Source: Catalinimonas alkaloidigena (GTDB lineage: Bacteria > Bacteroidota > Bacteroidia > Cytophagales > Cyclobacteriaceae). From it: a stretch of 64,000 bases of DNA. Positions 30,321 through 44,132 of the stretch are shown one piece after another. Location of the stretch: positions 811,001 to 875,000 of the forward strand of contig NZ_JAQFIL010000001.1 in NCBI RefSeq assembly GCF_029504655.1. Reading direction: 5' to 3'. The position numbers were made by a program, and so were the translations under genes. The notes under the pieces were generated by a model that was given only the letters and a program-made list of their open reading frames with translations, was not told the DNA's origin and did no database searches. Every line of letters begins with the position of its first letter. Within the stretch, counting starts at the first letter, position 1.

Positions 30321-30354
30321 AGAAAGCGCCAAGATCACAGGTGCTTTCTTCCTT
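30321..30354 (+). terminator. Terminator of the deacetylase-like gene
   Basis: AGAAAGCGCC and GGTGCTTTCT form a 10-bp stem with one mismatch and a 9-nt loop, followed by TCCTT. It begins 29 bp after the stop codon. Confidence 0.6.
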
Positions 30355-30439
30355 ATCATTTCCGGACTGATAATCCCAGTGGTATCCGTCGGCCCGCTAA
30401 CATAGGTTACAAATCTACCATGACTGGAAAGTAGAGGGT

Positions 30440-30649
30440 TTACGCTGGCCTGCTGACCTCCTGAATGGCACCTGCTATATTATTTTCCCATCGGATAGCC
30501 ACGGAGCTTTCGGTGAATGTCGCACTCTGAGAAGCTGTAAAGTCATTAACACAGCTGCCATAATCAGAGCTACTGGCTGAGAAAGCATGGCTTACCAGGC
30601 CTAACAGGAATATCGCCAGGGCAAAAAGAAGTTTGAATGAGTCTTTCAT
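30440..30649 (-). CDS. Small exported protein of the GATGACC regulon
   Basis: 69 aa. MKDSFKLLFALAIFLLGLVSHAFSA is a good signal peptide, leaving a mature peptide of about 44 residues (SSSDYGSCVNDFTASQSATF and following) with a single Cys. I recognise no family. That it is a real gene is supported by the promoter at 30697-30724, which is identical in design to those of the CHAT/sigma locus 8-14 kb away; the -10 lies 48 bp before the ATG. It probably belongs to the same ECF regulon although it sits in another neighbourhood. Function unknown. Confidence 0.6.
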   Translation of the reverse strand: MKDSFKLLFALAIFLLGLVSHAFSASSSDYGSCVNDFTASQSATFTESSVAIRWENNIAGAIQEVSRPA

Positions 30650-30696
30650 GGCATTGGTGTTTTTATGTTGAAGAATGTATGTTGTCTACATTCCTT

Positions 30697-30724
30697 CTAT
30701 AGCGCTCCAATGAGAAAGGTCATC
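30697..30724 (-). promoter_or_regulatory. ECF-type promoter (GATGACC-N15-CTATAG), copy 6
   Basis: On the minus strand GATGACC (30718-30724) is followed after exactly 15 nt by CTATAG (30697-30702). Same elements and spacing as five promoters between 39328 and 44064. It drives the small exported protein at 30440-30649. Confidence 0.75.
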
Positions 30725-30815
30725 AATGAGAGGGAGTTTTTGTAATGGTGTTTATTCGTCAGGGGTTGATGGGGACGGCTCGTGCCTGCTAACATGTCTT
30801 GTGCTTTACATTTTG

Positions 30816-31208
30816 TTACTGAGCATGGAAAATGACTCTTTTCGCAAATAAAAAGACCATTAATTCCTTGCGAAACCAGCGTTTTCTCTTTCTCTCTGGC
30901 TCACTTACCCCTAATACACTTCGGAGAGCTGTACGATACCCGTCAAACGACCCCTGAAGGTCAGTTAGGGCCATAATCAGCAGAAAGATAGCCGTATAAA
31001 ACCCTAGTGCATTATGCAAGTTGTGATTGAATCTCTTTCGCTTCTCATACCATTTGAGTTTAAGCCCTTGCTTCCATGATTTTGCTTTTTGTGGAAACCA
31101 GATCACCAGCCCGCACATAATGAGAAGCGCAAATATCACGGTGCTCCACCTGACAATCGGCCGACCAATCTCGGTATCCAGCATCAGCCATCGGTGAAGC
31201 CTGAACAT
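30816..31208 (-). pseudogene. PepSY-TM protein, internal fragment
   Basis: 130 codons that match only the middle of a PepSY-associated transmembrane protein (normally about 370-400 aa): LHRWLMLDTEIGRPIVRWSTVIFALLIMCGLVIWFPQKAKSWKQG, then NHNLHNALGFYTAIFLLIMALTDLQGSFDGYRTAL. The N-terminal helix, the PepSY domains and the last helices are missing; a TAA stands just before the ATG, and the tail after residue 105 (KRKRWFRKELMVFLFAKRVIFHAQ) is not family sequence. In related loci an intact copy follows a TonB siderophore receptor and a DUF4374 protein, exactly as here, and reduces or releases iron from siderophores in the inner membrane. This copy is very likely dead. Confidence 0.7.
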
Positions 31209-31232
31209 TTACATAAAGAATTTAAATGAAGC

Positions 31233-31274
31233 AGGCTTTCTGGAGAGCAAAATGAATCGCTTCGCAGAAAGCCT
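31233..31274. repeat. 10-bp inverted repeat after the DUF4374 gene
   Basis: AGGCTTTCTG (31233-31242) and CAGAAAGCCT (31265-31274) with a 22-nt loop, in the gap between the DUF4374 gene and the PepSY fragment. No T-run follows, so it may be a processing or attenuation hairpin and not a simple terminator. Confidence 0.4.
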
Positions 31275-31305
31275 ACTGTATTGAATAACAAATAAAAATC
31301 ACATT

Positions 31306-32634
31306 TTAGAAAACACCGATGTAGTGGTTTCCTGCTTTGTTTGCCAGGGTAGCTCCTTTAGTAACTTCTCCTGTTTGACTGTTTAAAACATAAATATTTC
31401 CATCCTTACCTATGGGAGTCACTGCCATTAACAATTCATCTCCACTCACAAGAAAGCCCTGGTATTGATGAAGGCTAAGGTCGGCATCATCAGGTATTTC
31501 TTCTACACGCTCGGCAGTTTGGTTATTCAGGTCAACACGGGCTACATAGCTTTGGTCAGACTCACCATACCGATAAACAATGTAGCCTACACCATTCTTC
31601 ACATATCTCCAGGTCTGCACATAGACATCGTCAACTCCCAGCGCCTGATCCAGACTGAAAACATAGGAGTTGTCGTACTCATTATCTGCAGTGATCTTAA
31701 GTATATGAGAACCATTGGTATCTCTTTGGGTAGCCTGATAGATACTTCCATCTTCAGCCAGGAAGTTGACATTACTACGATATCCGGAGCAGTCACCATT
31801 GGCAACCGTAGATGTAATCACCTTCGGATTCTCCAGAGAAGGGTAATCTACTACCACAGACTTAGTGCCGAGTCTTTCCCATTCACTTTCTCTCTCACCT
31901 GTAGCAGGGTCGTACTTACGCATCCAGGTACCTATAATCAATTTGTCTTCTGCCTGATTCAACACCGGAGCATCTAAGCGGAAAATAGCATGTCCTTCGC
32001 TCTCTTCTTCTTCTGAAAGAGGGATTTCATATTGCTTATAATCGGAGATAAGCACATCCTGCAAGTCTAAAGCAAGTACAGTAGCTGTTCCACGGTAGTA
32101 TGCAAAGGTTTCTTCGGTCTCAGCATTGTTTGCGGTAATATCCGCTATATTAACCGCAATGCCCGTTTGATCGCCATCATATAGTTTTCCCCATCTGGGG
32201 GCAGTTCCGGCATATTGGGCAATACTGACTGTAACATCTTCTTCCACATAATTGGCACCACCCTGAACATCAAACCTGGAAAACTCACCGCCATTTTCTC
32301 CGGCATACGCTATGTTGAACAATGTTTCACCATCTTGTGAAACCTGCAAACGCGCGGTACGGTTAGATTTTACCGGTTCTCCTTCGTCATATAAATTGAT
32401 CGTTGTTTCCGGGTTGATGGCATCTTCGTAACTCACAGCGTAGATCATGGTTCCTCCATTGCCATCTCCAGGATCATCACCCATAAGGGCTCCCGCTACG
32501 GTCACCCAACGTGAGTCCTCCACCGGATCTTCTGTATCTACCGGGTCTGAAAGCTCGTCTTCATCACAACTGGTCAATGTAAAAGCAATTGCTATCGCAC
32601 TGAATAGCCAAAATTTAATAAACAGATTCTTCAT
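31306..32634 (-). CDS. DUF4374 lipoprotein of a siderophore uptake locus
   Basis: 442 aa from the ATG at 32634 (a start at 32643 adds three residues). MKNLFIKFWLFSAIAIAFTLTSC is a lipoprotein signal with lipobox LTSC, followed by an acidic linker and a beta-propeller-like body (for example VYVQTWRYVKNGVGYIVYRYGESDQSYVARVDL). DUF4374 proteins are nearly always paired with TonB siderophore receptors in Bacteroidetes and are thought to bind the siderophore at the outer membrane or periplasm. It starts 18 bp after the receptor stop and should be co-transcribed with it. Confidence 0.82.
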   Translation of the reverse strand: MKNLFIKFWLFSAIAIAFTLTSCDEDELSDPVDTEDPVEDSRWVTVAGALMGDDPGDGNGGTMIYAVSYEDAINPETTINLYDEGEPVKSNRTARLQVSQDGETLFNIAYAGENGGEFSRFDVQGGANYVEEDVTVSIAQYAGTAPRWGKLYDGDQTGIAVNIADITANNAETEETFAYYRGTATVLALDLQDVLISDYKQYEIPLSEEEESEGHAIFRLDAPVLNQAEDKLIIGTWMRKYDPATGERESEWERLGTKSVVVDYPSLENPKVITSTVANGDCSGYRSNVNFLAEDGSIYQATQRDTNGSHILKITADNEYDNSYVFSLDQALGVDDVYVQTWRYVKNGVGYIVYRYGESDQSYVARVDLNNQTAERVEEIPDDADLSLHQYQGFLVSGDELLMAVTPIGKDGNIYVLNSQTGEVTKGATLANKAGNHYIGVF

Positions 32635-32652
32635 GTTAAGCATGATAAAAAT

Positions 32653-35073
32653 TTACAAATTTGTGAGTGTATAGTTTAGTTTCAGATAAAAAGCCCTTCC
32701 TGGTTTTTGTACAGCGAAATTGTCATACACCTGACTATCAAAAATATTCCTCACATCGGCACTTACGACAAATTTTTTGTTGGGAAATATGTAATTGAGA
32801 CCGAAATCATGAATGAATTGGCGAGGGGTTCTGAAATCCTCAATCTCTAACCATGTGGTGTAAAAACGGTCAACAAAACCAAAGTTGTAAGACAGGTTTA
32901 AGTTAGCGTGCTTCGCTATCAGGTCTTTGAAGGTGTACTGTACAGCGCTGTTGATGGTAAAGAAAGGTTCATTAGGCAGCTGTTGGTTGAAGTTATCGTA
33001 GACATTACCATGGGTATCATATTGCATGTTGAATACCGAGTTAAAGCGGGACATATTCAGCATTACATTCAGACGTTTATCGTACAGGTAGTTTAGCTCC
33101 GCTTCAAAACCTAGGGACTTTGTTTTTCCTAAATTTTCAAAGGGATTGGTCTGTACTGCATCATTAATTCTGGGATTGATCCTTTGTACAATTTTATCTC
33201 TCGTATCCCGCACGAATCCTGTACCTGAAAATGACAGCTTATGGTCTTCTATCGTATAATTTCCAGCCTGAAACCCGATGTTTACATTATTGCTGATCTC
33301 AGGATTTATCCCCAGGTTCTCTACTATATTATCACCAGGGCTTCCGAATATTTCGTTTTCAGAGGGCATTCTGACGGCCTTCTCCGCGGAAGCAAGGATC
33401 ACCAGATGACGCATGGCGGAATAAGACAAAGCCACGCCATATCCGCTAGTATTTCTATTGCTGCTCACCCTATCTTCTGCACGCACGGATGCTCCATTTT
33501 CCTCTAGCAATATAGGGTCCATCCGCTTTATGCTTTGCTGATATAACTTGCCAAACAGATTGGCTTTCAGCCGTGAGTCAAGAGCGTTAAACTCATAGGC
33601 CAGAGAGGAAATATTCTTCTGCAAATCACGGGTGCCTATAAACTCTCGTTCTACAGCACTGCGCTTTTCATCCTGCTGAGTCCGGTCTATATTATAAAAG
33701 GCATGGCTGAAAATGAGCTTATGATGGTCATTGATAACGTAATTGAGCCCTGACCTGAAGGTAGCAATATTTCTGTCTATATGATTGATTGTGGGTGCGC
33801 CCTGCTGCGCTCCCTGGGGTCTTAAGATCGGGTTGCCATCCAGCCCTACACTCTTTTCGCCAAACCAGTTGTAGTTCCATTTGACCGTATCATTAACCAC
33901 CTGATCTCTATCACTCATGACTCCGTTAAAAGTAAGCTCCAAGCCGGGAATGAACAGATCATTTTTTCGGTAGGTAATACCAGCCACATTGGCCTGAGAT
34001 TTGGTAAACCTTCCTTTGTAGGGAATAGACATATAAGTGCCATGCTGTATCTCATTATAATCATCAGAACCATTGTAGCTGATGAAGAACTGATCGGCCC
34101 ACTTCACATTGGTAAAGCCAAGCGCTAGCTGACCACCAATAGATCGGTAGGCATCGTTAAACCTTTTGGCCCGCACATAATCATACCGACCGTTTGGCAA
34201 TATGTTCCTCACAAATTTGCCCCACACTTCATAATCATTGTCTGAGTAATTATAAAAACCAGACGCTTTTACAGTAAAGCCTGACTGATCATTGCGGTAC
34301 ATCCCGCTAAAGTTGCTTTGGAACGTATTAAAAGAGCCGTAAGAAACCGATGCTGTCAGGTTGTTGGCAACTTCTTTTTTTAAAACCACATTGATAGCCC
34401 CCCCTAAAGCATCATCAGCCAGGTGCGCGGGAAGTACGCCTTTGTATACCTCAATGCGCTCTATGAGGGCTGGTGGAATACTGTTCAGGCTGAAAGATCT
34501 ACCATAAGTAGATACGGGCAGGCCATCTATGAAAATCCGCACGGAGTTTCCTGACATCCCATTGAGGTTGTAGTCTACTGATGAACCTAAGCCTCCATTC
34601 TGGCGGACCCTCACTCCGGCAGTCCGGTTAAGCAAATCATTGGTCTGCACTGACTGGAGCGATGCAGCTTTCGTTTCTATCACATTAACAGCAAAGCCTT
34701 GGGTTTCAATTTCCTTCTTTTCGGTCATTCCCTCAACAATCACCTCGTTCAGCACGCTGGCATCTGCTCTTTCTAAAACCAAAGCCCCATCTACAGCGTG
34801 GCTGTCAACATTTATATTGTAAGCGTTTTTTTTAATTTCAATACTGCTGACTTCCAACTGGTGAGTTCCATAAGGAATATTGGCAATCTCATACCAGCCA
34901 TTCTCACTTGAGAGGGTATGTTTTTTAATAGAAGTAATGAAAACCGTAGCAAATGTCACGGGCGATCCATCTTCAAAAGTTAGTTTTCCGGAAATCTTTC
35001 CTGTCTGCGAAAAGCATAAGCTGGTTGAAAGAAAGCTCACAGTAATAAATGTCAGGACCGATGATCTCCACAT
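32653..35073 (-). CDS. TonB-dependent siderophore receptor
   Basis: 806 aa from the ATG at 35073 (an in-frame ATG at 35082 adds three residues). Signal peptide MWRSSVLTFITVSFLSTSLCFSQ, then a carboxypeptidase-regulatory-like domain (about 25-105), plug (about 110-230, with FAVNVIETKAASLQ, VDYNLNGMSGNSVRIFIDGLPV and IERIEVYKGVLPAHLADDALGGAINVVLK) and a beta barrel ending in aromatic residue-rich RAFYLKLNYTLTNL. Its partner DUF4374 gene, the PepSY remnant and an upstream Fur-like palindrome support an iron-siderophore role. The particular siderophore is not predictable. Confidence 0.88.
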   Translation of the reverse strand: MWRSSVLTFITVSFLSTSLCFSQTGKISGKLTFEDGSPVTFATVFITSIKKHTLSSENGWYEIANIPYGTHQLEVSSIEIKKNAYNINVDSHAVDGALVLERADASVLNEVIVEGMTEKKEIETQGFAVNVIETKAASLQSVQTNDLLNRTAGVRVRQNGGLGSSVDYNLNGMSGNSVRIFIDGLPVSTYGRSFSLNSIPPALIERIEVYKGVLPAHLADDALGGAINVVLKKEVANNLTASVSYGSFNTFQSNFSGMYRNDQSGFTVKASGFYNYSDNDYEVWGKFVRNILPNGRYDYVRAKRFNDAYRSIGGQLALGFTNVKWADQFFISYNGSDDYNEIQHGTYMSIPYKGRFTKSQANVAGITYRKNDLFIPGLELTFNGVMSDRDQVVNDTVKWNYNWFGEKSVGLDGNPILRPQGAQQGAPTINHIDRNIATFRSGLNYVINDHHKLIFSHAFYNIDRTQQDEKRSAVEREFIGTRDLQKNISSLAYEFNALDSRLKANLFGKLYQQSIKRMDPILLEENGASVRAEDRVSSNRNTSGYGVALSYSAMRHLVILASAEKAVRMPSENEIFGSPGDNIVENLGINPEISNNVNIGFQAGNYTIEDHKLSFSGTGFVRDTRDKIVQRINPRINDAVQTNPFENLGKTKSLGFEAELNYLYDKRLNVMLNMSRFNSVFNMQYDTHGNVYDNFNQQLPNEPFFTINSAVQYTFKDLIAKHANLNLSYNFGFVDRFYTTWLEIEDFRTPRQFIHDFGLNYIFPNKKFVVSADVRNIFDSQVYDNFAVQKPGRAFYLKLNYTLTNL

Positions 35074-35173
35074 ATGACACACACTGATTTAGGCAGAAAA
35101 ACTGCCATTATTCATATTTAGATTAATTATAAATAGGTGTGCAATTTTAGGAATAGTATCTTATTAAAGCAAG

Positions 35174-35196
35174 TTATTTAGATAAACTCTAAATAA
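35174..35196. promoter_or_regulatory. Fur-like palindrome upstream of the siderophore receptor
   Basis: TTATTTAGA-N5-TCTAAATAA is a perfect 9-bp inverted repeat, about 100 bp upstream of the receptor start and 122 bp upstream of the divergent hydrolase gene. A second weaker one, TATTTA-N9-TAAATA, lies near 35117-35137. Iron-dependent repression by Fur is inferred from context. Confidence 0.5.
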
Positions 35197-35317
35197 AATT
35201 ATAAGCTTTTTTCATCCGATTGGAGAGGCTTCCGTTCATTAGGATATGCATTGAGTAAAGCTTAGCGTAAACTCTGGCTCTTTTCGTGAGTTTAGTAATT
35301 GTATCTATACTATTACT

Positions 35318-36340
35318 ATGAAAAAAAGAATCTGGATTCCTCTACTCATCATTGTAGTCCTGCTTATAGCTTATCTTGTCGGGCCGATGCCTCCCAACCC
35401 TACGTATTCAGAAGCATGGCCGGAATTACCATCCTCTTTAACCAACTTGGAAAAGTATATCAAAATCACTGAAGCCAAGCATGCGGTGCGAGAAGATAAC
35501 CAGGCCAGAATTATTTGGCATAACAATACACCTCAGCTTAGCGAATATAGCTTTGTCTATCTTCATGGTTTTGCGGGTAGCTATCGTGACGGCTATCCAC
35601 TTAATGTAAGCGTCGCCGATACTTTTAATGCTAATATTTACCTTTCTCGCTGGGCTGGTCACGGCTTAAAACCATCAGTCGCTTTAAAAAGTTTTTCAGC
35701 AGAAGCCGCCTGGGAGTCGGCTAAGGAGGCTCTCGCGATAGGGCAGCGTATTGGACGAAAAGTAATCATTATGAGTACTTCTACCGGAGGCACACTGGCA
35801 CTGAAGCTGGCTTCCACCTATCCCGATTCAGTATTTGCGCTGATCAATATTTCTCCCAATATTCGGGATGATGCCTTCGGAGCATTTCTGTTGAATTCTC
35901 CCTGGGGATATGAAATTGCACATTTAGCAGCCTTGGGAGAGCATCGTAAAGTCAGGCATGAAAAAGAAATTGCTGCGCAATATTGGGACACCATATATCC
36001 AGCTGAAGCTTTGCTCAATCTTGAGGTATTAGTGACATCAACTATGCATGCGGAGACGTTCAATAAGATTAATTGTCCGATGATTACCTTATACTACTAC
36101 AAAAACTTTTTGTTAGAAGATGAACATGTAGAAGTAGACCGGTACCCGGAAGTTTATCAGGCGCTTTCTACTCCCGACTCGCTGCTTAGGCTTATTGCAC
36201 TCGGGGAGCCGGAAACGCACTTTATAGGCAGTGCCATCAAGTCAAAAAACTGGAGGGGTGCCCAGCAGGAAATCATCTTATTTTGTCGCCGAGTTCTAGG
36301 TATGCCTGTTTTGGCAGATTCTGCATCACAAGCTTTATAG
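35318..36340 (+). CDS. Membrane-anchored alpha/beta hydrolase
   Basis: 340 aa with an N-terminal transmembrane anchor (WIPLLIIVVLLIAYLVGPM, residues 5-23). FVYLHGFAGSYRDGYP is the oxyanion-hole region, IIMSTSTGGTLAL the nucleophile elbow (Ser in STSTGG), and GEPETHFIG near the C-terminus is a candidate catalytic His. The fold is that of alpha/beta hydrolases related to serine aminopeptidase S33/lysophospholipases. Substrate unknown. Divergent from the siderophore receptor and convergent with the HExxH protein gene. Confidence 0.78.
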   Translation: MKKRIWIPLLIIVVLLIAYLVGPMPPNPTYSEAWPELPSSLTNLEKYIKITEAKHAVREDNQARIIWHNNTPQLSEYSFVYLHGFAGSYRDGYPLNVSVADTFNANIYLSRWAGHGLKPSVALKSFSAEAAWESAKEALAIGQRIGRKVIIMSTSTGGTLALKLASTYPDSVFALINISPNIRDDAFGAFLLNSPWGYEIAHLAALGEHRKVRHEKEIAAQYWDTIYPAEALLNLEVLVTSTMHAETFNKINCPMITLYYYKNFLLEDEHVEVDRYPEVYQALSTPDSLLRLIALGEPETHFIGSAIKSKNWRGAQQEIILFCRRVLGMPVLADSASQAL

Positions 36341-36359
36341 AAACTGCCGGAGGCAGTTT
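36341..36359. terminator. Short hairpin between convergent genes
   Basis: AAACTGCC-GGA-GGCAGTTT, an 8-bp perfect stem directly after the hydrolase stop and 33 bp before the end of the opposing peptidase gene. No T-run, so termination is plausible but not certain. Confidence 0.4.
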
Positions 36360-36392
36360 CCCTGCTTATCAGGCCACTTGCGTATATTATTG

Positions 36393-37103
36393 TCAATCCG
36401 CGGTCAGCAAGTCATCAGGCAAATTATCCATCAGTTCTATGGCTTCTTCCGCTGACATATAAAACTGCTTGATTCTTTCCTTGTACTCCAGAGGAATATC
36501 AGTATGGTTTTGAATGAAATTTTTCTTAATCACCAGGTACTCACCCAGATTACAATGAATAGCTTGTACATCAGCAGTCCTTTCGGCTTCTATCATATAC
36601 TCGCGTGAAGTGAGATAGGACCAGCCAAACTTCATCAGAGCAAAAGCACTTTTATCCTGATAATCCATGATATGGCCGAGTTCGTGGGCCAGCCAGCCAA
36701 TAATTATATCTTTGGGCAATTTTTCTATCGGAATAGTATGACCTTCCATCTGAAAGTTGCGAGAAATTTTAATAACGTAATCTCTTTTACTTTTAGATTG
36801 AAAAAAACCATACCATTTAGGTTGAGCCTGCATAAAGGATTTATTGATCCTATCTTTGAACACGAAATCTATTTGTGTATTCGCCAGTTCGGGAAAATAG
36901 GATAATACTTCCGCAATCTCCTCTCTTATGATAGAAGGTGCTTTTTTGTTTTTTAAAATTTGTTTTTCACTCTCCTCAATTTTTGTCTCTACAAATTGCT
37001 TTGTTGCTACATCATGCTTATGATAAACAGTACTCGCATCGTTTTGGCCAAAATTGAAGGTAGAGAAAACTATTAACAGTAAAACTGATAAGTGTTGGAA
37101 CAT
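36393..37103 (-). CDS. Exported HELGH metallopeptidase-like protein
   Basis: 236 aa from the ATG at 37103 (MFQHLSVLLLIVFSTFNFGQ is the signal peptide; a start at 37127 adds eight residues). IIGWLAHELGHIMDY holds a HELGH zinc motif (His140, Glu141, His144), and EYMIEAERTADVQAIHCNLG downstream fits the Glu/Asp-bearing third-ligand helix of gluzincin-type peptidases (ExxxAD). No named family is certain; M48-like is possible but the usual membrane helices are absent. Single gene. Confidence 0.65.
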   Translation of the reverse strand: MFQHLSVLLLIVFSTFNFGQNDASTVYHKHDVATKQFVETKIEESEKQILKNKKAPSIIREEIAEVLSYFPELANTQIDFVFKDRINKSFMQAQPKWYGFFQSKSKRDYVIKISRNFQMEGHTIPIEKLPKDIIIGWLAHELGHIMDYQDKSAFALMKFGWSYLTSREYMIEAERTADVQAIHCNLGEYLVIKKNFIQNHTDIPLEYKERIKQFYMSAEEAIELMDNLPDDLLTAD

Positions 37104-37496
37104 GCGTGGAGATATTTCAATTAACAATTCACATCATTACTGAAAAGCCAACAACATAGTCTTATTATGAGTTTATTATATGAAAAAATACCGCAACTTT
37201 TTTTTGATAAATGGGATTTTTATTCATCAAAAAGGTAAAAAAATAGCATTATTATGATTTTTTATTAGATCAAAAAATAATCATCGTAATAGAAGTTATT
37301 CTTATTTTTCACAGGCTCTATCTTTAAAAATAGTGAAAGATAACTTTTCAGTCATCACGAAAGGGCGTGGCCACGCAGAGTCATCCCGAAGGGATTCCTG
37401 CCTGATGGACTTTACCACTTGATAATGCCCCACAGAAAGTCAGTTGTTTGCTGGCTAGGGCAACTGATTGATAAAGCCCACTAGCTCGGATGGTGG
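37104..37496. other. Intergenic region with AT-rich inverted repeat
   Basis: 393 bp. TTTTTGATAAAT (37201-37212) and ATTCATCAAAAA (37222-37233) form an 11/12 inverted repeat. Near 37380 GTCATCCCGAAGGGAT resembles the ATCCC/GGGAT core of the direct repeats around the Zorya-like operon, suggesting a dispersed short repeat. No gene is supported. Confidence 0.45.
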
Positions 37497-38234
37497 CTAT
37501 TCCAGTTCTTCCAGTATCTCAAGGCTCTGCTTACGGTAGGCGCTGCCTTCCGCGGATAGTTCGTTGAGGATAGCTCTGGCCTCTTCTTCCTGCTCGTTCA
37601 ACAGATACGCCAGCGCCTGGTACCAATGGGCATCATTAGAAAATACAGAACTTTCGGTTTGCGCCACTTTCTCCAGATAGCCAAGAGCCTGGGCAGGGGC
37701 TTCTTCAGCCAGGAAGGAGATTCCCACATAATAGTTGAGTGTATCATTACTGGGGGCAGCTTTCAAGAGAGGCTGCCAGTAGCTTCTGGCTTCTGCATAT
37801 TCTCCCAGCTTATAAGATACCATGCCTTCAGCAAAATCCGTGCTGTTGGAGTAGCCAAGGGTAGTAGGTAGGCCGGTGGCTGGAGCAAAATAGGAAGCAT
37901 AGAGCGTAGCCGGTTGAGAAGGTTGCACACTGAAAAACCACCATCCGGCGAGGACAAAGAGTGCCAGAGAGGCTGCCACAGCCCAGGTGAAGTAAGAACG
38001 TCTTGATTGCATGGAGACTACAGGCGTCTCCTCCTCAAAGTGCGCTTCATGAATCTGATCCAGCATTTGACGCAATGACTCGGTTTCTATAGAAGAAATG
38101 AGTTTTTTGTGAAGTGCTACTTCCTCCCAAAGTGCTTCATCTTTTTCAAGTTCAGTCTCAAAGCTGTCCTTTTCAGAAGCTGAGAGCCTTCCGTGAATGT
38201 AATCTTCCATTTTTTCAAAAAGTTTTTCGTCCAT
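37497..38234 (-). CDS. Anti-sigma-factor-like membrane protein with periplasmic TPR
   Basis: 245 aa. Residues 1-80 are a soluble acidic N-terminus (DEKLFEKMEDYIHGRLSASEKDSFETELEKDEALWEEVALHKKL), the pattern of cytosolic anti-sigma domains in Bacteroidetes. A single transmembrane helix follows (AVAASLALFVLAGWWFF, about 88-104), then a periplasmic domain with three or so TPR-like helix pairs (FAEGMVSYKLGEYAEARSYW, YYVGISFLAEEAPAQALGYL, WYQALAYLLNEQEEEARAIL). It starts 10 bp after the sigma-factor gene, as expected for a sigma/anti-sigma pair. It probably holds the sigma factor until a periplasmic signal arrives. Confidence 0.75.
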   Translation of the reverse strand: MDEKLFEKMEDYIHGRLSASEKDSFETELEKDEALWEEVALHKKLISSIETESLRQMLDQIHEAHFEEETPVVSMQSRRSYFTWAVAASLALFVLAGWWFFSVQPSQPATLYASYFAPATGLPTTLGYSNSTDFAEGMVSYKLGEYAEARSYWQPLLKAAPSNDTLNYYVGISFLAEEAPAQALGYLEKVAQTESSVFSNDAHWYQALAYLLNEQEEEARAILNELSAEGSAYRKQSLEILEELE

Positions 38235-38244
38235 GATGCTTATG

Positions 38245-38820
38245 TCAAGACTGGGTTAGCACTATTTTTTTGAGCCGCTGCATGCAACGGTACTTTTCAT
38301 TTTTGGCTGAAGCCTCGCCAATAGTCATCACCTCAGCGATTTCCTGTAGGCTTTGCTTCAAAAAGTAGAAGCGTTTCAGTAAGTTCTGGCAACGTTCTCC
38401 TAACTGAGCAAACTGCTGCTGGAACTGAGACTGTTCTTCTTTGTCAATCCACTCTACCATCACCTCAGCCTCTTCCGCAGGTTCCATATACACTTCCTGT
38501 TTTACTTCGTAACGGGAGCTTGCTTTCTTCATTTTGTCCATCCATCGGAGTTTACAAATCTGTATCAGGTAAGTACTGAGCTTGACCCCTTCACGAAGCT
38601 GATAAGTGCCGGAGCGTATGTTGTTCCAAAGTGCGATAACTCCTTCCTGAAAGATGTCTTTGGCATCGTCTTCACTGCCTCTGTACTGAAATATTAACTG
38701 GCGCACTGCCGGAAAATTCTGGGTATAGAGGTATTCAAAAGCGCTTTGGTCATTTTTAAGTAATCCCTGATACAGGCTGGAGTCATCATATTCGGAGGCA
38801 GGCTTAGATTTCGTCGTCAT
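38245..38820 (-). CDS. ECF-type RNA polymerase sigma factor
   Basis: 191 aa. Region 2 is seen at about residues 28-95 (FEYLYTQNFPAVRQLIFQYRGSEDDAKDIFQEGVIALWNNI, then LSTYLIQICKLRWMDKMKK) and region 4 at about 135-188 (LGERCQNLLKRFYFLKQSLQEIAEVMTIGEASAKNEKYRCMQRLKKIV). It is followed directly by the anti-sigma-like gene. Five GATGACC-N15-CTAT promoters within 6 kb upstream, plus one 8 kb away, are the natural candidates for its regulon. Its own gene has no such promoter; the nearest is that of the 38904-39293 gene just upstream, so read-through could give positive feedback. Confidence 0.88.
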   Translation of the reverse strand: MTTKSKPASEYDDSSLYQGLLKNDQSAFEYLYTQNFPAVRQLIFQYRGSEDDAKDIFQEGVIALWNNIRSGTYQLREGVKLSTYLIQICKLRWMDKMKKASSRYEVKQEVYMEPAEEAEVMVEWIDKEEQSQFQQQFAQLGERCQNLLKRFYFLKQSLQEIAEVMTIGEASAKNEKYRCMQRLKKIVLTQS

Positions 38821-38903
38821 ATTTACAGTGGGTTACTCACCAGTACAGCAGGTTAAGATGAGAAAACAAACTGTAAAATATACATATAAATATTGATTTA
38901 CGA

Positions 38904-39293
38904 CTAATATGGCGCTCTTTGCGTGCCCATTCCCCGGTAAGAACTACTGTTTTGTACAGTGCCGGTAGGATACCCTCCATTATTGTAATCAGGCTGCGCA
39001 TTTCCAGGAGCCTGAGTAACCGTTTGATTCTGTGGTGCTTGTCGCATGGGCTGAGCAGGTAAATTACTACGATTCATCTGCCGTTCCGGTGCATATTGTC
39101 CATTCTGAGAGGACTGAGGTGCAGCAGGAGCATAGGGTTGCTGAGTAGCATAAGGCGCTTGCTGCGGTGCTGATGAAGTAGAATCGTCCATACCATAGGC
39201 AATAACCACACCGACTACAACGATCCACAGGATAACCTTTTTGGATTTAAATCCTGAGAAATAATCTTTAAGCATTTTTTCTGAAGTTTTCAT
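38904..39293 (-). CDS. Small membrane-anchored Gln/Pro-rich protein of the GATGACC regulon
   Basis: 129 aa from the ATG at 39293 (MKTSEKMLKDYFSGFKSKK); a longer start at 39326 is ruled out because it would fall next to the -10 element at 39328. One transmembrane helix (VILWIVVVGVVIAYGM, about residues 20-36) is followed by a low-complexity tail rich in Gln, Pro, Ala and Asn (SSAPQQAPYATQQPYAPAAP and so on). The tail should be extracytoplasmic. No known domain. It shares its promoter type with the three YDKGLQM paralogs and lies just upstream of the sigma factor. Confidence 0.6.
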   Translation of the reverse strand: MKTSEKMLKDYFSGFKSKKVILWIVVVGVVIAYGMDDSTSSAPQQAPYATQQPYAPAAPQSSQNGQYAPERQMNRSNLPAQPMRQAPQNQTVTQAPGNAQPDYNNGGYPTGTVQNSSSYRGMGTQRAPY

Positions 39294-39327
39294 AATCTTA
39301 AGTGTTTGAATGATTGTTTCTATCAAT

Positions 39328-39355
39328 GAATAGAGTAGGTGAGGGGAAGGTCATC
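39328..39355 (-). promoter_or_regulatory. ECF-type promoter (GATGACC-N15-CTATTC), copy 5
   Basis: Minus-strand GATGACC at 39349-39355 and CTATTC at 39328-39333 with exactly 15 nt between. The -10 is 35 bp before the ATG at 39293. Confidence 0.75.
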
Positions 39356-39450
39356 ATGAAAATGAGATTTTTTTTAGTCTGGCTTTCCAGCCCATGAAAG
39401 CTTCTATAAAAGCCACTTCAATCGCGTAGAATCAGCAACGCTATGAAAGC

Positions 39451-39481
39451 AAAAAGCCCGCGGCACAATGTCCACAGGCTT
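39451..39481 (-). terminator. Terminator of YDKGLQM paralog C
   Basis: AAGCCTGTGG and CCGCGGGCTT (minus strand) pair over 10 bp with two G-T pairs, 8-nt loop, then a T-run. Nearly identical in sequence to the terminator after paralog A at 42758-42791. Confidence 0.75.
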
Positions 39482-39505
39482 GGGGAAGATGGGTTAAGCG
39501 TAAGG

Positions 39506-40735
39506 TTAATAAGGGTATTCAGGCTCTATCTGCTGCCAGTCACCCTGGAGTGAATTCTGGTCAAAGCTAGGGTCATCAGTACGGTAGTAATCTCCCAGGC
39601 CATTGGTGTAATTGTAGTCATACTGTCCATCCATATGCCTCTCCTGTTCAGACCAGGGGTCATTAAAAGTGCTGCGCTCATGGATTTGGTCAATATATGC
39701 ATCCTGACTGCTGTAGCCATTTGTGCTGTATGAGCCGCTATTACTCATGCTGTTCATATAGCTATTATGCTGGGCATCCCGAATCTGGTTCATTTCACTT
39801 ATGTTTCTTTGGCTTGCGTCAAAAGCGGCCTGATTGTTAGCCATTCTTTGGCGGTGCGCTGCTGCGGCATTGGCACTGCGCTGCTGGTTGGCTACCGCCA
39901 TCTGCTGCATTACCTGCTGGTTGATCTGATCCATACGCTGCTCATGTGCAGGATTACTTACTGTATTCTCTCCTATTTTTTTGATGATAGCCTCAGACTG
40001 CTCATAATGTTTTGTCGGAGCAAGCATAAGCGCCATAGGCATTAATGTTCCCATTTCACCCATAACAGTGGACTGGGTAAGCTTGGCAATAGCTATTTTA
40101 CCTTTATATGCCTGTCCGTTTCTCTGCCCGTTTACTGCCACTTCCAGCGCGCTTACCCGCATACCCTGAGCACTCAGTTTCTGGGCCATTTTTCTAAAGT
40201 CTTTATTTTGCTCTCCCTCCTGGCTAGGGACTAAGTTAGCTACTGAAGCCTGATTTAATGTATTGTTAAGAATTAGCCCAAGCGCTTCCTGATAGGCTTG
40301 TTCAAAGCTTTTACGATTACGTACGCCGTACTCAAAAAGCTGGGCATAAGCCCGGCTCAACTCTCCTCCGGGACCGCTAATATCAAGTTTGAAGTTAATG
40401 GGGCGAGCTGTATTAGGGTCAAAAGCGATGTCTTGTTCCACTTTCCAGCCCTCAGGTAAAGTAATAGTGGAAATAGGCATTTGCAAGCCTTTATCATAAA
40501 TTACGACTTTTCTGTCATCATTGGCAGAGGCAGTAAAACTTGACTGAGGATTGGCTACTTGCTGCTGGGCATTGTCCTGATATTGTCCGCTCTCACTGAT
40601 GAAGCCTCCATTCTCAATATAACCTGCATCATAGCTGTTATCCTGATCATCAAAAAGAAAGAAAGAGCCGACGAGCAGAATGCCAGCGATGGCGATTATT
40701 TTTATAGTGCGAGAAAGTTCTTTAAAGGATTTCAT
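39506..40735 (-). CDS. Membrane-anchored YDKGLQM-family protein, paralog C
   Basis: 409 aa of unknown function. N-terminal anchor (IKIIAIAGILLVGSFFLF, residues 12-29), low-complexity linker, then a domain opening VVIYDKGLQMPISTITLPEGWKVEQDIAFDPNT (about 75-105) and containing ISGPGGELSRAY. A Gln/Asn/Ala-rich coiled segment (about 275-320) leads to a conserved tail: GYSSQDAYIDQIHERSTFNDPW, HMDGQYDYNYTNGLGDYYRT and SLQGDWQQIEPEYPY. The tail is almost identical to that of paralog A while the middle has diverged strongly. Driven by the promoter at 40775-40802. The extracytoplasmic domain probably acts in the envelope; no enzyme motif is seen. Confidence 0.7.
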   Translation of the reverse strand: MKSFKELSRTIKIIAIAGILLVGSFFLFDDQDNSYDAGYIENGGFISESGQYQDNAQQQVANPQSSFTASANDDRKVVIYDKGLQMPISTITLPEGWKVEQDIAFDPNTARPINFKLDISGPGGELSRAYAQLFEYGVRNRKSFEQAYQEALGLILNNTLNQASVANLVPSQEGEQNKDFRKMAQKLSAQGMRVSALEVAVNGQRNGQAYKGKIAIAKLTQSTVMGEMGTLMPMALMLAPTKHYEQSEAIIKKIGENTVSNPAHEQRMDQINQQVMQQMAVANQQRSANAAAAHRQRMANNQAAFDASQRNISEMNQIRDAQHNSYMNSMSNSGSYSTNGYSSQDAYIDQIHERSTFNDPWSEQERHMDGQYDYNYTNGLGDYYRTDDPSFDQNSLQGDWQQIEPEYPY

Positions 40736-40774
40736 AGTAAAGTAAATTTAGTTTTGTTATTCTGTTTATCTATC

Positions 40775-40802
40775 TATAGAACCAGTGGTCAGGAGGTCAT
40801 CA
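40775..40802 (-). promoter_or_regulatory. ECF-type promoter (GATGACC-N15-CTATAG), copy 2
   Basis: Minus-strand GATGACC at 40796-40802 and CTATAG at 40775-40780, 15 nt apart. The -10 is 40 bp before the start of paralog C at 40735. Confidence 0.8.
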
Positions 40803-40863
40803 GGCATCATCAAAAAAATTAAATTTTTTTTTACGTGGGGTTTCTGTCCAAGACAGGCCTGAC

Positions 40864-41400
40864 TTAATTATAGCTCATCATGTTGTTGGTCGGTGTGCCC
40901 ACCACCACTGAGTAATTCCATTTCCAGTCATTGTAAAGTTGCTGTGGTGCCTGAGCATAGGTCTGTCCGTTAGCAGGATCGCTTACTCGTATCAGTCCTT
41001 CTGGTGTAAGTCCTTGTAAGATGATGAAATGACCTACATTGGGATTATTACTGGGATTGACCAGGGCGATAAGTTTCCATCCATTGGCTAAAGTAGAGTA
41101 CAACTGTTCGGGCGATGCCGGGTAACTCACCTCCCAGGCTCTGAACTGATAAGACTGTAGTAGCTGCACTACCTCTTTGACATGAGCAGGGCGATTCTGC
41201 GGGCTTCCGGTCAGGCGGCTCACAATTTCTGTTTGTGTCTGATTGACCTGTGCCTGGGCGAGCACACTTTGCACACAGGCAGCCCAGCACCACATTGTGT
41301 TTTCCTGTACTCTGATCTGGGCCTGCGCCTCGCTTATGATTAAGACAAATAAGAGAAGAAGCAGGTAGCTGATTTTTTTGAATGACTGGGTACTTTTCAT
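40864..41400 (-). CDS. Exported papain-like cysteine peptidase (C70/AvrRpt2-like)
   Basis: 178 aa with a signal peptide (ISYLLLLLFVLIISEAQA). The mature protein is a compact papain-like peptidase: VQENTMWCWAACVQSVL gives the nucleophile Cys38 in a WCWAAC context, NPNVGHFIILQG gives His124, and RVSDPANG gives Asp141 as third member. This order and spacing matches PF12385-type C70 peptidases. It follows the small exported ORF at 41440-41649 by 39 bp and has no GATGACC promoter of its own, so the two are probably one transcript. It may process proteins of the same regulon; that is inference. Confidence 0.75.
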   Translation of the reverse strand: MKSTQSFKKISYLLLLLFVLIISEAQAQIRVQENTMWCWAACVQSVLAQAQVNQTQTEIVSRLTGSPQNRPAHVKEVVQLLQSYQFRAWEVSYPASPEQLYSTLANGWKLIALVNPSNNPNVGHFIILQGLTPEGLIRVSDPANGQTYAQAPQQLYNDWKWNYSVVVGTPTNNMMSYN

Positions 41401-41439
41401 CGTTCTGTAATTTTTTACTTGTCATTAAGTTATGGTGAA

Positions 41440-41649
41440 TCAGTTAGCGTACTCTTTTCTCATTTTCTGAGGTAATAAGGTGTCCGTAGAAACTCTGAAC
41501 CTGTTGGGATCAACGGTATAGAGCGCAGAGTGCATGCTGCTGCCTCTGTCCTCTAGCTTGTTGTTTACGTCGGGCGTATGATTTGTGAAAGCGAGTACGG
41601 CTTTTAACACTGCGATCAGGAAGAGTATGAGTATGTGCTGGCGTTTCAT
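41440..41649 (-). CDS. Small exported protein upstream of the cysteine peptidase
   Basis: 69 aa with a signal peptide (MKRQHILILFLIAVLKAVLAF) and a mature part of about 48 residues (TNHTPDVNNKLEDRGSSMHS and following) with no recognised domain. A GATGACC promoter lies 38 bp upstream, which supports it as a real gene. It is the leading gene of a two-gene unit with the C70-type peptidase, so it could be a propeptide, inhibitor or substrate of that enzyme. These roles are guesses. Confidence 0.6.
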   Translation of the reverse strand: MKRQHILILFLIAVLKAVLAFTNHTPDVNNKLEDRGSSMHSALYTVDPNRFRVSTDTLLPQKMRKEYAN

Positions 41650-41686
41650 GGCGTGAAAGTTTAAGAAGTTTAGCTTGTCTACTGAT

Positions 41687-41714
41687 ATATAGAGGAGTGC
41701 TGAGGCTGGTCATC
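41687..41714 (-). promoter_or_regulatory. ECF-type promoter (GATGACC-N15-CTATAT), copy 4
   Basis: Minus-strand GATGACC at 41708-41714 and CTATAT at 41687-41692, 15 nt apart. The -10 is 38 bp before the ATG at 41649. Confidence 0.78.
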
Positions 41715-41735
41715 AGATGCTGAGGAATTTTTCAT

Positions 41736-41770
41736 AAAAAAAAGCCACTGTATGAAACTACAGTGGCTTT
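41736..41770 (-). terminator. Terminator of YDRGLQM paralog B
   Basis: Perfect 12-bp stem (AAAGCCACTGTA / TACAGTGGCTTT) with a 6-nt loop, followed on the minus strand by a run of T. It lies 24 bp after the stop of paralog B. Confidence 0.85.
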
Positions 41771-41793
41771 GGGTGAAAGAGTGAGGCTATGGT

Positions 41794-42666
41794 TTAGTAT
41801 GTATTGCTTTGCATATAGTTCCAATCATTATAATCTGTATAATAGCTGGAATCAGGGTGCCAGCCAATTCTCTCAGGTATATATCTATCCATTGCCCTTT
41901 GGTAAGCTTTGTATAAGTGAAGACAGTATTCTTCAAAGGCGGGATTAGCCTGATAGCTGAATGCGATTTGCTCCTCTTTTTTCAGAGTTTCAGCCAACTT
42001 GTCCTCCGGTGCAGTGACAATACCTAGTGTTATTTGGCGTAGATCGTAATAGCTAGAAGTAGGATAAACAATCCTGACCAGACCCTGATAGGCTTCGCCA
42101 TCCAGTATCCCTTTGAAAGGGACTTCCAGATATTGATACGTACTGTCAATATCGATATAGGTACGCAGATAACGAGCTTCAGTGGGCTTGCCGGACCTTA
42201 TCTCTTCCAGATGCATTTCATCCATAAAACCTTTCAAACTCTGCTTGAGGAGCGGCTGTAATTCCTCTTCAAAGTCTTTAAAGTCCGAGGCTTTGCCAAG
42301 CTTATAATAACCATTATAGACGTGACTCCTGATTATTTCTCCCTCAGGGCCGTTAAAACTTAGAAAAAAATTGCTAAGACTACCTCCGCTGTAAGGATCA
42401 GTGGAAATGTCCTGCTGTACCAGCCAGTTGTGAGGTATCAGGTAAGACCCCCTGATCATTTGCAGGCCACGATCATAGACCGCTACTTTTTTGACTGTGT
42501 CGTTGAGTGCCTGGTCTTCTTTCATAAAAGCAATGCTACCAAGTTTGACTGCCTCCGTATCCTGCATATTCATATCTGGCATGATAGGATAGCCGATGAA
42601 CATTAAACCGAAGCAGATGGCCAATATGACTTCCGCAATGAGTAGAAAATAAGTGAAGGACTTCAT
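41794..42666 (-). CDS. Membrane-anchored YDRGLQM-family protein, paralog B
   Basis: 290 aa. The ATG at 42666 (MKSFTYFLLIAEVILAICFGLMF) is the start; the longer frame from 42696 is excluded because its ATG abuts the -10 element at 42697-42702. An N-terminal helix is followed by VAVYDRGLQMIRGSYLIPHNWLVQQDISTDPYSGG, clearly homologous to paralogs A and C, and FNGPEGEIIRSH matches their SGP-GEL-R block. It lacks the conserved C-terminal tail of the other two and ends in an acidic Tyr/Asp-rich stretch. Function unknown; envelope-located by topology. Confidence 0.68.
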   Translation of the reverse strand: MKSFTYFLLIAEVILAICFGLMFIGYPIMPDMNMQDTEAVKLGSIAFMKEDQALNDTVKKVAVYDRGLQMIRGSYLIPHNWLVQQDISTDPYSGGSLSNFFLSFNGPEGEIIRSHVYNGYYKLGKASDFKDFEEELQPLLKQSLKGFMDEMHLEEIRSGKPTEARYLRTYIDIDSTYQYLEVPFKGILDGEAYQGLVRIVYPTSSYYDLRQITLGIVTAPEDKLAETLKKEEQIAFSYQANPAFEEYCLHLYKAYQRAMDRYIPERIGWHPDSSYYTDYNDWNYMQSNTY

Positions 42667-42696
42667 AGCATAATTTCGTTTAGGAGTTCTACCCAT

Positions 42697-42724
42697 TTAT
42701 AGAAACCGAAGCACTAAGGTCATC
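42697..42724 (-). promoter_or_regulatory. ECF-type promoter (GATGACC-N15-CTATAA), copy 3
   Basis: Minus-strand GATGACC at 42718-42724 and CTATAA at 42697-42702, 15 nt apart. The -10 is 31 bp before the ATG at 42666 and fixes that start for paralog B. Confidence 0.8.
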
Positions 42725-42757
42725 ATACGCGAAAGGTTTTTTACTGAAAATACCCCT

Positions 42758-42791
42758 AAAAAAAAGCCCGTGGTACAATGTCCACAGGCTT
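42758..42791 (-). terminator. Terminator of YDKGLQM paralog A
   Basis: AAGCCTGTGG / CCACGGGCTT stem of 10 bp with one G-T pair, 8-nt loop and a T-run on the minus strand; near copy of the terminator at 39451-39481. Confidence 0.78.
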
Positions 42792-42815
42792 AGGGGAGAT
42801 AGGTTAAGCGTAAGA

Positions 42816-44003
42816 TTAATAAGGGTATTCAGGTTCTATCTGCTGCCAGTCACCCTGGAGTGAGTTCTGGTCAAAGCTAGGATCATTTGTGCGGTAGTAG
42901 TCTCCCAGGCCATTGGTGTAATTGTAGTCATATTGTCCATCCATATGCATCTCCTGACCAGACCAGGGGTCGTTGAAAGTACTACGCTCATGGATTTGGT
43001 CAATGAAAGCATCCTGACTGCTGTAGCCATTTGTGTTGTATGAACCACTATTTCTCATGCCATCCATAAAGCTATTATAGCTATCATCTCTTAATTGATT
43101 CATTTCACTAATATTTCTTTGGCTTGCATCAAAAGCTGCCTGGTTGTTTGCCATTCTCTGCTGATGGGCAGCACTTGAGTTAGCCATTTGCTGATTGTGG
43201 AAGTTGTTGAAGCGTTGCATAACGGTCTGTTGGATTTGTTCTCTGCGCTGCTCGTAAGCAGGGTTCAGGCTATAGCTCTCATCAATCATAGTCTTTACTT
43301 TGGTCAGAGATGCCAGCTTACCGGCAGGAGCGATTGAGCCGCTTACTGTCAGAGAACCTGCTTGTGAGCCTACTTTATTGATTTGAACGAAGCCTTCATA
43401 ACGCTGACCATTGTAGTAGCCGGATACCGGAGCTTTCAGGCACTGAATCTGAGTACCGCTGTTTACGAGTCGCTGATACACTCCGAGTTTCATGAGTGTT
43501 TGCTGAGCCTTTGGATCCTGCTCCAGATTGCCCACGCGCAACTGCTCAAGCTGTAAGCCTGAAAGGGCTCTCTGCAGTCCCTGCTCAAAGCTTATGCCTG
43601 ACATCGCTCCAAATTTGGTAGTACCCAAAGAGCGGATCAACTCTCCCTGAGGGCCGCTTATTTCTACATGATATCTGGCAGATTCATTGGTATTAGGATC
43701 TACGGCGATGTCCTGGCTTAGTTTCCAGTCTTCGGGAATGGTATATGTGCCTATAGGCATTTGCAAACCTTTGTCGTACAGTACGATCTTTCCGCCTTCA
43801 GAGGAAGGGTTAGAGGTGATTTGGTTGGCGGTAGCCGCAGTGGCTTGTCCGTCGTTTGAATACTGACCAGGCTCATAGACATAGCCGCCATTTTCAGCGT
43901 AGCTCTCGTCCTGATCGTCTAACATAAAAAAGCCTCCGGCGAGTATACCGCTGGCGATGATAAGTATTTTGCGGGTGCTGGATAGTTCTTTAAAAGATTT
44001 CAT
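42816..44003 (-). CDS. Membrane-anchored YDKGLQM-family protein, paralog A
   Basis: 395 aa, homologous along its length to paralog C. N-terminal anchor ILIIASGILAGGFFMLDDQ, domain opening IVLYDKGLQMPIGTYTIPEDWKLSQDIAVDPNT (about 72-104) and ISGPQGELIRS. The segment MANNQAAFDASQRNISEMNQ, found in both A and C, leads into the shared tail GYSSQDAFIDQIHERSTFND and DYNYTNGLGDYYRTNDPSFD. DNA similarity between A and C is highest over the last ~330 bp and runs past the stop codon into the terminator. Function unknown; likely an envelope protein induced by the local ECF sigma factor. Confidence 0.7.
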   Translation of the reverse strand: MKSFKELSSTRKILIIASGILAGGFFMLDDQDESYAENGGYVYEPGQYSNDGQATAATANQITSNPSSEGGKIVLYDKGLQMPIGTYTIPEDWKLSQDIAVDPNTNESARYHVEISGPQGELIRSLGTTKFGAMSGISFEQGLQRALSGLQLEQLRVGNLEQDPKAQQTLMKLGVYQRLVNSGTQIQCLKAPVSGYYNGQRYEGFVQINKVGSQAGSLTVSGSIAPAGKLASLTKVKTMIDESYSLNPAYEQRREQIQQTVMQRFNNFHNQQMANSSAAHQQRMANNQAAFDASQRNISEMNQLRDDSYNSFMDGMRNSGSYNTNGYSSQDAFIDQIHERSTFNDPWSGQEMHMDGQYDYNYTNGLGDYYRTNDPSFDQNSLQGDWQQIEPEYPY

Positions 44004-44036
44004 AGTGTTGAGGATTTAAATAGTTTGTTTACTTAT

Positions 44037-44064
44037 CTATAGAGCCGGTCATATCAAGGTCATC
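44037..44064 (-). promoter_or_regulatory. ECF-type promoter (GATGACC-N15-CTATAG), copy 1
   Basis: Minus-strand GATGACC at 44058-44064 and CTATAG at 44037-44042, 15 nt apart. The -10 is 34 bp before the start of paralog A at 44003. Confidence 0.8.
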
Positions 44065-44132
44065 ATGTTTTTCTTAGAAAAGATAAAAAATATTTTACTC
44101 AATCTTTATATGTAGAGTAAGCAGTATAAAAA

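Follow-up and report, generated by a model that had tools for sequence, protein, structure and literature searches.

We analyzed a stretch of 64,000 nucleotides from Catalinimonas alkaloidigena (contig NZ_JAQFIL010000001.1, positions 811,001 to 875,000), referred to here as the window. On its minus strand lies a gene for an extracytoplasmic function (ECF) sigma factor, and six copies of a two-box element, GATGACC-N15-CTATW, stand before open reading frames (ORFs) in its surroundings. A sequence-only reading of the window had proposed that these 'six identical promoters' define the regulon of that sigma factor, and the comparisons reported here make it very likely that the six sites are indeed its promoters. 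The features concerned are the following.

44133..47399, minus: TPR-CHAT caspase-like protease, 1088 aa, with a C-terminal transmembrane (TM) helix and a signal-like N-terminus (by eye)
44038..44065, minus: site TGATGACC-N15-CTATA, 34 nt 5' of the ATG of the 395-aa gene
42816..44003, minus: putative target, N-terminally anchored protein of the 'YDxGLQM' family, 395 aa
42698..42725, minus: site TGATGACC-N15-CTATA, 31 nt 5' of the ATG at 42666
41794..42666, minus: putative target, shorter YDxGLQM paralogue, about 290 aa
41688..41715, minus: site TGATGACC-N15-CTATA, 38 nt 5' of the ATG of the 69-aa ORF, the C70/C39-like peptidase gene coming next
41440..41649, minus: putative target, small 69-aa ORF with a signal-like N-terminus, matching no family
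40864..41400, minus: putative target, exported papain-like C70/C39 peptidase, 178 aa (Peptidase_C70, E 8.2e-8), probably second in its operon
40775..40802, minus: site TGATGACC-N15-CTATA, 39 nt 5' of the ATG of the 409-aa gene
39506..40735, minus: putative target, YDxGLQM family, 409 aa
39329..39356, minus: site TGATGACC-N15-CTATT, 35 nt 5' of the ATG at 39293, heading a probable operon that ends in the sigma and anti-sigma genes
38904..39293, minus: putative target, small protein with a membrane anchor, about 130 aa (39326, a TTG, is the start in the ORF list)
38245..38820, minus: ECF sigma factor, 191 aa, regions 2 and 4 (Sigma70_r2 and TIGR02937 matches, alignments)
37497..38234, minus: anti-sigma-like protein, 245 aa, with a helical N-terminal domain, one TM helix (about 83-103) and TPRs
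30698..30725, minus: site TGATGACC-N15-CTATA, 48 nt 5' of the ATG of a decayed lipoprotein gene remnant
30351..30649, minus: putative target, decayed remnant of a PD40-type beta-propeller lipoprotein gene, with pieces matching residues 102-148 and 350-386 of an intact homologue

Exact matches to GATGACC-N15-CTATW occur six times in the window, all on the minus strand, against 0.04 expected from 100 dinucleotide shuffles (largest count in any shuffle, 1). The spacer is exactly 15 nt in all six, and the -10 box is CTATA in five and CTATT in one (39329-39355). The number of sites and their exact spacing thus stood as proposed, whereas 'identical' was loose, the common part being TGATGACC (a T precedes GATGACC in 6/6) plus CTATW; the coordinates first given were one base too long at one end, the sites covering 27 bases and not 28 (e.g. 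44038-44064). All six sites are intergenic, and their distances from CTATW to the ATG, listed above, agree with the 31-48 bp reported earlier. The description of the targets as exported or membrane-anchored proteins fitted five of them (by eye) but not the sixth, at 30698-30724, which precedes a 69-codon frame of the decayed beta-propeller lipoprotein remnant. A conserved pair of -35 and -10 boxes at fixed spacing stands before the sigma operon as well as before the targets, the arrangement taken here to mark a regulon. The 39329..39356 site would also place the sigma operon under its own control.

The element in the genome and beside related sigma factors

The whole genome (7.92 Mb, 3 contigs) holds 8 exact matches to GATGACC-N15-CTATW, compared to 4 for the reversed control. 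These comprise the six window sites, one match that, by reading, falls within a SusD-like coding sequence, and an intergenic match at C1:6.62 Mb. When TGATGACC and CTATW were combined with spacers of 8-24, 24 matches were recovered, 7 of them at spacer 15, 5 at 13 and at most 2 at any other. All seven spacer-15 matches are intergenic (the six window sites and C1:6622305-6622332), so the full TGATGACC-N15-CTATW did not show the commonness inside coding regions that the sequence-only reading had named as evidence against a regulon. The C1:6622305-6622332 site lies 47 nt 5' of the ATG of a lipoprotein-like gene, the product of which is 70.8% identical to an in-cluster target of genome G026 that carries the same site. 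Across 395 genomes of the class, 75 had a match to TGATGACC-N15-CTATW, and more than two matches were found only in the window's genome.

The protein encoded at 38245..38820 is an ECF (group IV) sigma factor, having regions 2 and 4 only and a size in the range of about 170-200 aa. It matches Sigma70_r2 (E 2.5e-10, 40.5 bits, cut-off 24) and TIGR02937 (74.3 bits, cut-off 42.9), with region 4 below its cut-off (18.6 vs 24.1). Scanning named genomes with a three-sequence sigma profile yielded 16 loci (L106 being the G026 contig), and 15 of these, together with genomes G002 and G026 and the window, made up a set of 18 close loci (293,965 bases) in which the 17 homologues are 40-77% identical to the window sigma. 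The suggestion that the motif should be sought next to orthologous sigma genes in relatives was borne out, as the element recurs in this comparison. In G002 (sigma 70% identical) and G026 (64%) it precedes the gene immediately 5' of sigma as well as other genes of the cluster; exact whole-genome matches to GATGACC-N15-CTATW numbered 4 in G002, 2 of them at the cluster, and 2 in G026, both at the cluster. With the spacing of TGATGACC-Nk-CTAT left free (k=5-30), the 18 loci gave 36 matches at k=15, one at k=8 and one at k=30, and at least one exact site was present in 14/18 loci. The element is thereby preserved nearly unchanged even in distant relatives.

These 36 sites and the remote lipoprotein-gene site, 37 in all, are also conserved in columns that the search pattern left free. 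Directly 3' of TGATGACC, two successive columns are T in 32/37 and 29/37 sites, pyrimidines precede CTAT, and an A follows two bases past CTATA in 36/37; a weaker GGTAAA is found 5-10 nt past CTATA. On this comparison the fuller element is TGATGACC(TT)-N15-CTATAnA. A -35 box TGATGACC(TT) followed by CTATA fits the geometry of ECF promoters such as those of SigW. An ORF on the same strand starts within -65 to +130 nt of every one of the 37 sites, and no site falls inside an ORF of at least 100 aa. In the ten genomes of the whole-genome scan, 12 of the 15 matches outside clusters are inside ORFs, and 4/15 have the A two bases past CTATA.

The element also tracks the sigma factor across larger sets of homologues. 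Among 74 sigma rows, TGATGACC was found within 350 bp 5' of the sigma start in 12 of the 21 rows scoring >190 with profile A3 and in 1/53 of the others, a split that is partly by construction since close members went into A3. Of the other nine high-scoring rows, seven carry the full site at another place in the locus, and L114 and L152 lack it. A sigma tree offers a more independent comparison. On such a tree of 72 rows, 18 of them labelled for the element (L107, L113, L119 and L154 for the -35 box only), the label required 4 changes compared to a shuffled mean of 16.2, and 0/500 shuffles were as low; the label is clustered, yet it does not form one clade.

Variants of the site (TGATGACT) were tried and rejected. 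The one match in G000 lies inside an opposite-strand ORF, compared to 2 control matches. Two of the three variants in G002 are in the cluster and the third (L183) overlaps an opposite-strand ORF; none was found in G026. Separately, a one-mismatch site (GAGGACC...CTAT) occurs four times at C1:5943233-5946390 of G000, the copies lying exactly 1,044 bp apart, which makes a 1,044-bp tandem repeat likely.

A second, probable promoter dialect and the putative target genes

A de novo 6+4 dyad search recovered the first element and, beside another sigma clade whose surrounding genes are of the same kinds, returned TGATGAC followed by CGATG or ATGT. The second search set consisted of 87 upstream regions from seven loci (L076-L081 among them) whose sigmas are 33-37% identical, and the second dialect reads TGATGACA-N14-C(G/T/A)ATG. 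Scanning the seven loci (136.5 kb) for TGATGACA-Nk-C.ATG(T/A/C), k=6-29, gave 16 matches at k=14, two at k=15 and one at k=28. This pattern was fixed after the sites had been seen and near-copies are present (two in L077, pairs among L078, L079 and L080), so the count does not represent 18 independent events. The second dialect is present in six of the seven second-clade loci, and the first dialect in none of them. In 20 whole genomes, TGATGACA-N15-GATG had 34 matches compared to 9 for the control; of the 34, 11 are no more than 10 kb from sigma (G003, G027, G040 and G044). The aligned sigmas of the two clades have the KYRC core of region 4.2 in common (16 close homologues all have NEKYRCM there, and four aligned second-clade sigmas have NNKYRCI) and, with the usual boundaries of the two regions, are more divergent in region 2.4, which fits a shared -35 and a changed -10.

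The YDxGLQM family, a name coined here, links the two dialects. Its three window members each have a hydrophobic N-terminus, and a sequence search against solved structures returned only two matches, both at E above 1. Members were found in 8/79 relatives, namely G000, G002, G026, the second-clade genomes G022, G032, G040 and G044, and, as a weak match, G052. Three of the four second-clade copies, those near the sigma in G022, G040 and G044, carry the second dialect, suggesting that the target family is served by the dialect of the neighbouring sigma clade. A protein named Catalinimonas sp. 4WD22 shares 86% identity with the 395-aa target. More remote relatives (P0030, P0031, P0033 and P0046; 39-42% identity over 82-83%) come from metagenome-assembled genomes named Burkholderiaceae, Eisenbacteria and Gammaproteobacteria, which may reflect wider spread, transfer or mis-binning.

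Homologues of the small anchored protein (38904..39293) lie directly 5' of sigma in L069 and L071. The sixth site is 8.6 kb from the others and precedes the PD40-type remnant, the pieces of which were compared separately without mending the reading frame; intact PD40 lipoprotein homologues adjoin sigma in L104, L105 and G002, where the site takes its TGATGACT form. The 30.7-kb site is set apart from the other cluster genes by a TonB-receptor-like gene and one for a lipoprotein (31306-35082, minus strand), which perhaps represent an insertion that parted the decayed target from sigma.

Other families stand behind the sites in other lineages. Motif sites precede FHA-trypsin protein genes in L116 and L117, and PP2C phosphatase genes in L112, L116 and L117, a Ser/Thr kinase gene adjoining the phosphatase gene; in the Saprospiraceae-type loci L116 and L117 these genes hint at a phospho-signalling output, suggesting that the circuit feeds different outputs by lineage. 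In L111 and L118 the gene behind the site (in L118 the TGATGACT variant) has a pentapeptide-type relative, and a gene for a C1 papain-like peptidase comes next. The second-dialect loci encode beta-lactamase-fold and Fib_succ_major lipoproteins.

Recurrence of the element beside homologues, its clustering on the sigma tree, the second dialect and the dispersed lipoprotein target with its site all support the earlier proposal that the sites are used by the sigma factor encoded at 38245-38820.

The anti-sigma-like and TPR-CHAT module and the proposed circuit

An anti-sigma-like ORF of 237-247 aa lies 3' of sigma in 18/18 close loci, with a TM-like stretch (17/18 aligned), and sigmas of the second clade are likewise paired with a TPR-bearing membrane protein of this type. 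In the window protein, the anti-sigma model NF052375 matched residues 10-117 (E 1.7e-7, below its cut-off) and TPR domains were matched as well; the best 60 of 102 matches in a sequence search against solved structures were TPR and other repeat proteins. An AlphaFold2 model (mean predicted local distance difference test score 80.2, predicted template-modelling score 0.56) shows three helices at the N-terminus, a TM-like one at 83-103 and, from residue 132, TPR helices modelled with confidence; confidence is low for residues 50-110. As modelled, the protein fits the layout of a membrane anti-sigma, namely a sigma-adjacent gene, an N-terminal cytoplasmic domain and one TM helix.

The TPR-CHAT protein of the window matches PF12770 (E 1e-43) and has the catalytic His and Cys expected of a CHAT protease, in HFGTH at 904 and LTACE at 952, as well as a hydrophobic stretch at 1058-1076. 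The search against solved structures returned kinesin light chain and other TPR proteins for it, and no Csx29 chain was among the 26 matches at E up to 1. TPR-CHAT ORFs of >900 aa were found in 12/18 close loci and 7/7 second-clade loci (20 ORFs). In five second-clade loci (L076-L078, L080 and L081) the anti-sigma ORF is followed at once by the CHAT ORF, and in L079 nearly so. The Cys pattern is present in 18/20 of these ORFs, and the His pattern in all, being the selection criterion. Fifteen of the 20 proteins passed the C-terminal hydropathy threshold, mostly with basic residues next, and their N-termini resemble signal peptides by eye; we infer that the CHAT protease is periplasmic. The 300 nt upstream of the window CHAT gene contain no motif site, which would suit a sensor that is always made. 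Two tandem TPR-CHAT genes were seen beside the sigma cluster at L118:494-7091 (plus strand).

In the circuit that we propose, the ECF sigma factor encoded at 38245-38820 uses TGATGACC(TT)-N15-CTATAnA as its -35/-10 promoter. In the resting state, the anti-sigma, with its single TM helix, would hold sigma at the membrane through its N-terminal domain. Once a signal arrives at the TPRs in the periplasm, both those of the anti-sigma and those of the membrane-anchored TPR-CHAT protein, the protease would become active, cut the anti-sigma and set sigma free. The freed sigma would then transcribe its own operon, the YDxGLQM anchored proteins, the papain-like peptidase and at least one distant lipoprotein gene; with sigma and anti-sigma downstream of such a promoter, the circuit should amplify itself. 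We consider this account as a whole, judged from sequence, to be probable. The element, its spacing, its co-inheritance with sigma and the gene neighbourhood are supported by sequence comparison, and the transcription, the inhibition by the anti-sigma, the periplasmic topology and the signal are putative. Compared to the sequence-only reading, the analysis adds the longer -35 and -10 boxes, the decay of the sixth target and a conserved sigma / TPR anti-sigma / CHAT module.

Several observations weigh against this account. Four of the 18 close loci (L107, L113, L114 and L119) have no exact site; L107, L113 and L119 have TGATGACC within 350 bp 5' of sigma with other -10 boxes (TCGATC, GCAATA and GGTATT), and L114 has neither an exact site nor TGATGACC close 5' of sigma. 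The second-clade locus L076 has no second-dialect site, nor does the YDxGLQM copy of G032, which lies away from its sigma. Allowing one mismatch gave no enrichment across the window's genome (125 matches vs 186 in the control), so weaker targets cannot be named. Relatives of G379 had site counts at background level (a match in 2/13 family genomes and 3/22 order genomes, the 13 included, one each, against 3 and 4 for the control), despite the strong (close) sigma homologue in G379 itself. The NF052375 match of the anti-sigma, at 31.5 bits, is below the curated cut-off of 100. Five of the 20 CHAT C-termini and the N-terminus of the window CHAT protein are under the hydropathy threshold, and membrane topology was judged by hydropathy and eye.

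Cleavage of the anti-sigma by CHAT is the best-supported mechanism and, going by gene neighbourhood and topology, stands at about even chances. It is possible, if somewhat doubtful, that CHAT does not act on the anti-sigma and is a separate neighbour, the anti-sigma sensing through its own TPRs or being cut by other proteases. In keeping with that possibility, no full CHAT gene was seen in L111 (contig end to end), L112 (18 kb) or the shorter L110 (a piece), L115, L117 and L119; the frequency of CHAT ORFs in the close and second-dialect loci, and their position, in most second-dialect loci, directly after the anti-sigma ORF, argue against it.

As for the promoter itself, the two boxes might be a two-part binding site of another regulator encoded elsewhere, with sigma a mere neighbour. 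The sequence tools used cannot directly tell a promoter from a fixed two-box operator, but the fixed 15-nt phase, the orientation of the site toward a downstream gene in 37/37, the clustering on the sigma tree and the presence, next to another sigma clade, of a dialect that keeps the -35 core make this explanation very improbable; no other regulator was seen common to the clusters, although the conservation of other regulators was not systematically searched. We give still less credence to promoters of another ECF sigma of the same genome. The genome has 7 sigma matches at E 1e-10 (the window's own included), with several paralogues, and ECF sigmas can overlap in promoter use. However, the congeneric G001 encodes other ECF sigmas (best match E 1.5e-21) and lacks both this orthologue and the YDxGLQM family, and its 3 matches to the shorter pattern are all inside ORFs; the 350 bp before sigma also lack the element in 52/53 more distant ECF loci. 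Copying of the promoters along with duplicated genes, which the three targets from one family might suggest, was rejected as extremely improbable because the spacers, which the sequence-only reading had called unrelated, are only slightly more similar than shuffles (mean identity 0.34 vs 0.28), the 40 nt upstream are at shuffled identity (0.29 vs 0.28) and the targets come from several unrelated families.

Rfam had no match in window positions 30000-48000. Elsewhere in the window, a Zorya type II-like anti-phage operon is located at 56625-59376 (plus strand; PADLOC: ZorA2 E 4.8e-90, ZorB2 1.8e-99, ZorE2 HNH 1.2e-72), and a 373-aa ORF at 51304-52425 (minus strand) is presumably transposase-like, judging by its sequence.

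Comparison with known systems

Csx29 of the type III-E CRISPR system is, according to PMC10028731, a TPR-CHAT protease, and its substrate Csx30 inhibits an ECF-like sigma. The module described here resembles the type III-E CASP/Craspase system in encoding a TPR-CHAT protease, an inhibitor and an ECF-like sigma together, and resembles CASP-sigma in having motifs of the sigma in its own locus, read in the CRISPR system as positive autoregulation (same paper). Unlike in type III-E, the window anti-sigma has a TM helix and the window CHAT protein a C-terminal one, suggesting that both are membrane-bound with periplasmic TPRs; in addition, no Cas7-11 was found among the neighbouring genes read, and PADLOC gave no Cas match for six proteins. 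Since the structure search did not return Csx29, we do not file the module as a type III-E CASP member, though the logic is alike.

The combination of an ECF sigma, a single-TM anti-sigma, a membrane-linked protease, an envelope setting and autoregulation is also that of E. coli RpoE-RseA-DegS and B. subtilis SigW-RsiW, as outlined in PMC10028731 and PMC8103513. The differences are that the candidate protease is a CHAT (caspase-like) protein and not DegS (a PDZ serine protease) or PrsW, and that the anti-sigma carries TPRs outside. The short helical N-terminal domain before the TM helix in our AlphaFold2 model is like the class I anti-sigma domains (ASDIs) of PMC7406223, which places ASDIs beside only 6% of Bacteroidetes ECFs compared to 32% over all phyla. 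In view of that rarity the window anti-sigma may belong to another class, the comparison with ASDIs being by description and not by ASDI hidden Markov models. Among their listings, literature searches gave nothing on this promoter or on a non-CRISPR TPR-CHAT/sigma pairing, which does not exclude a published ECF group number or motif.

How most Bacteroidetes ECF sigmas are controlled by anti-sigmas is an open question, as the 6% figure in PMC7406223 indicates. Through the promoter code of the module, targets can be read off in many genomes, its two dialects form a natural pair for studying joint change of sigma and promoter, and it would allow control of a sigma factor by a caspase-like protease to be tested outside CRISPR. 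We tentatively suggest a widespread Bacteroidota module in which a periplasm-facing TPR-CHAT protein acts as the site-1 protease for a TPR-bearing anti-sigma, and sigma clades and promoters co-diverge (TGATGACC-N15-CTATA vs TGATGACA-N14-CGATG). Such a module would be a non-CRISPR, envelope-sensing counterpart of Csx29/Csx30/CASP-sigma, and perhaps its ancestral form.

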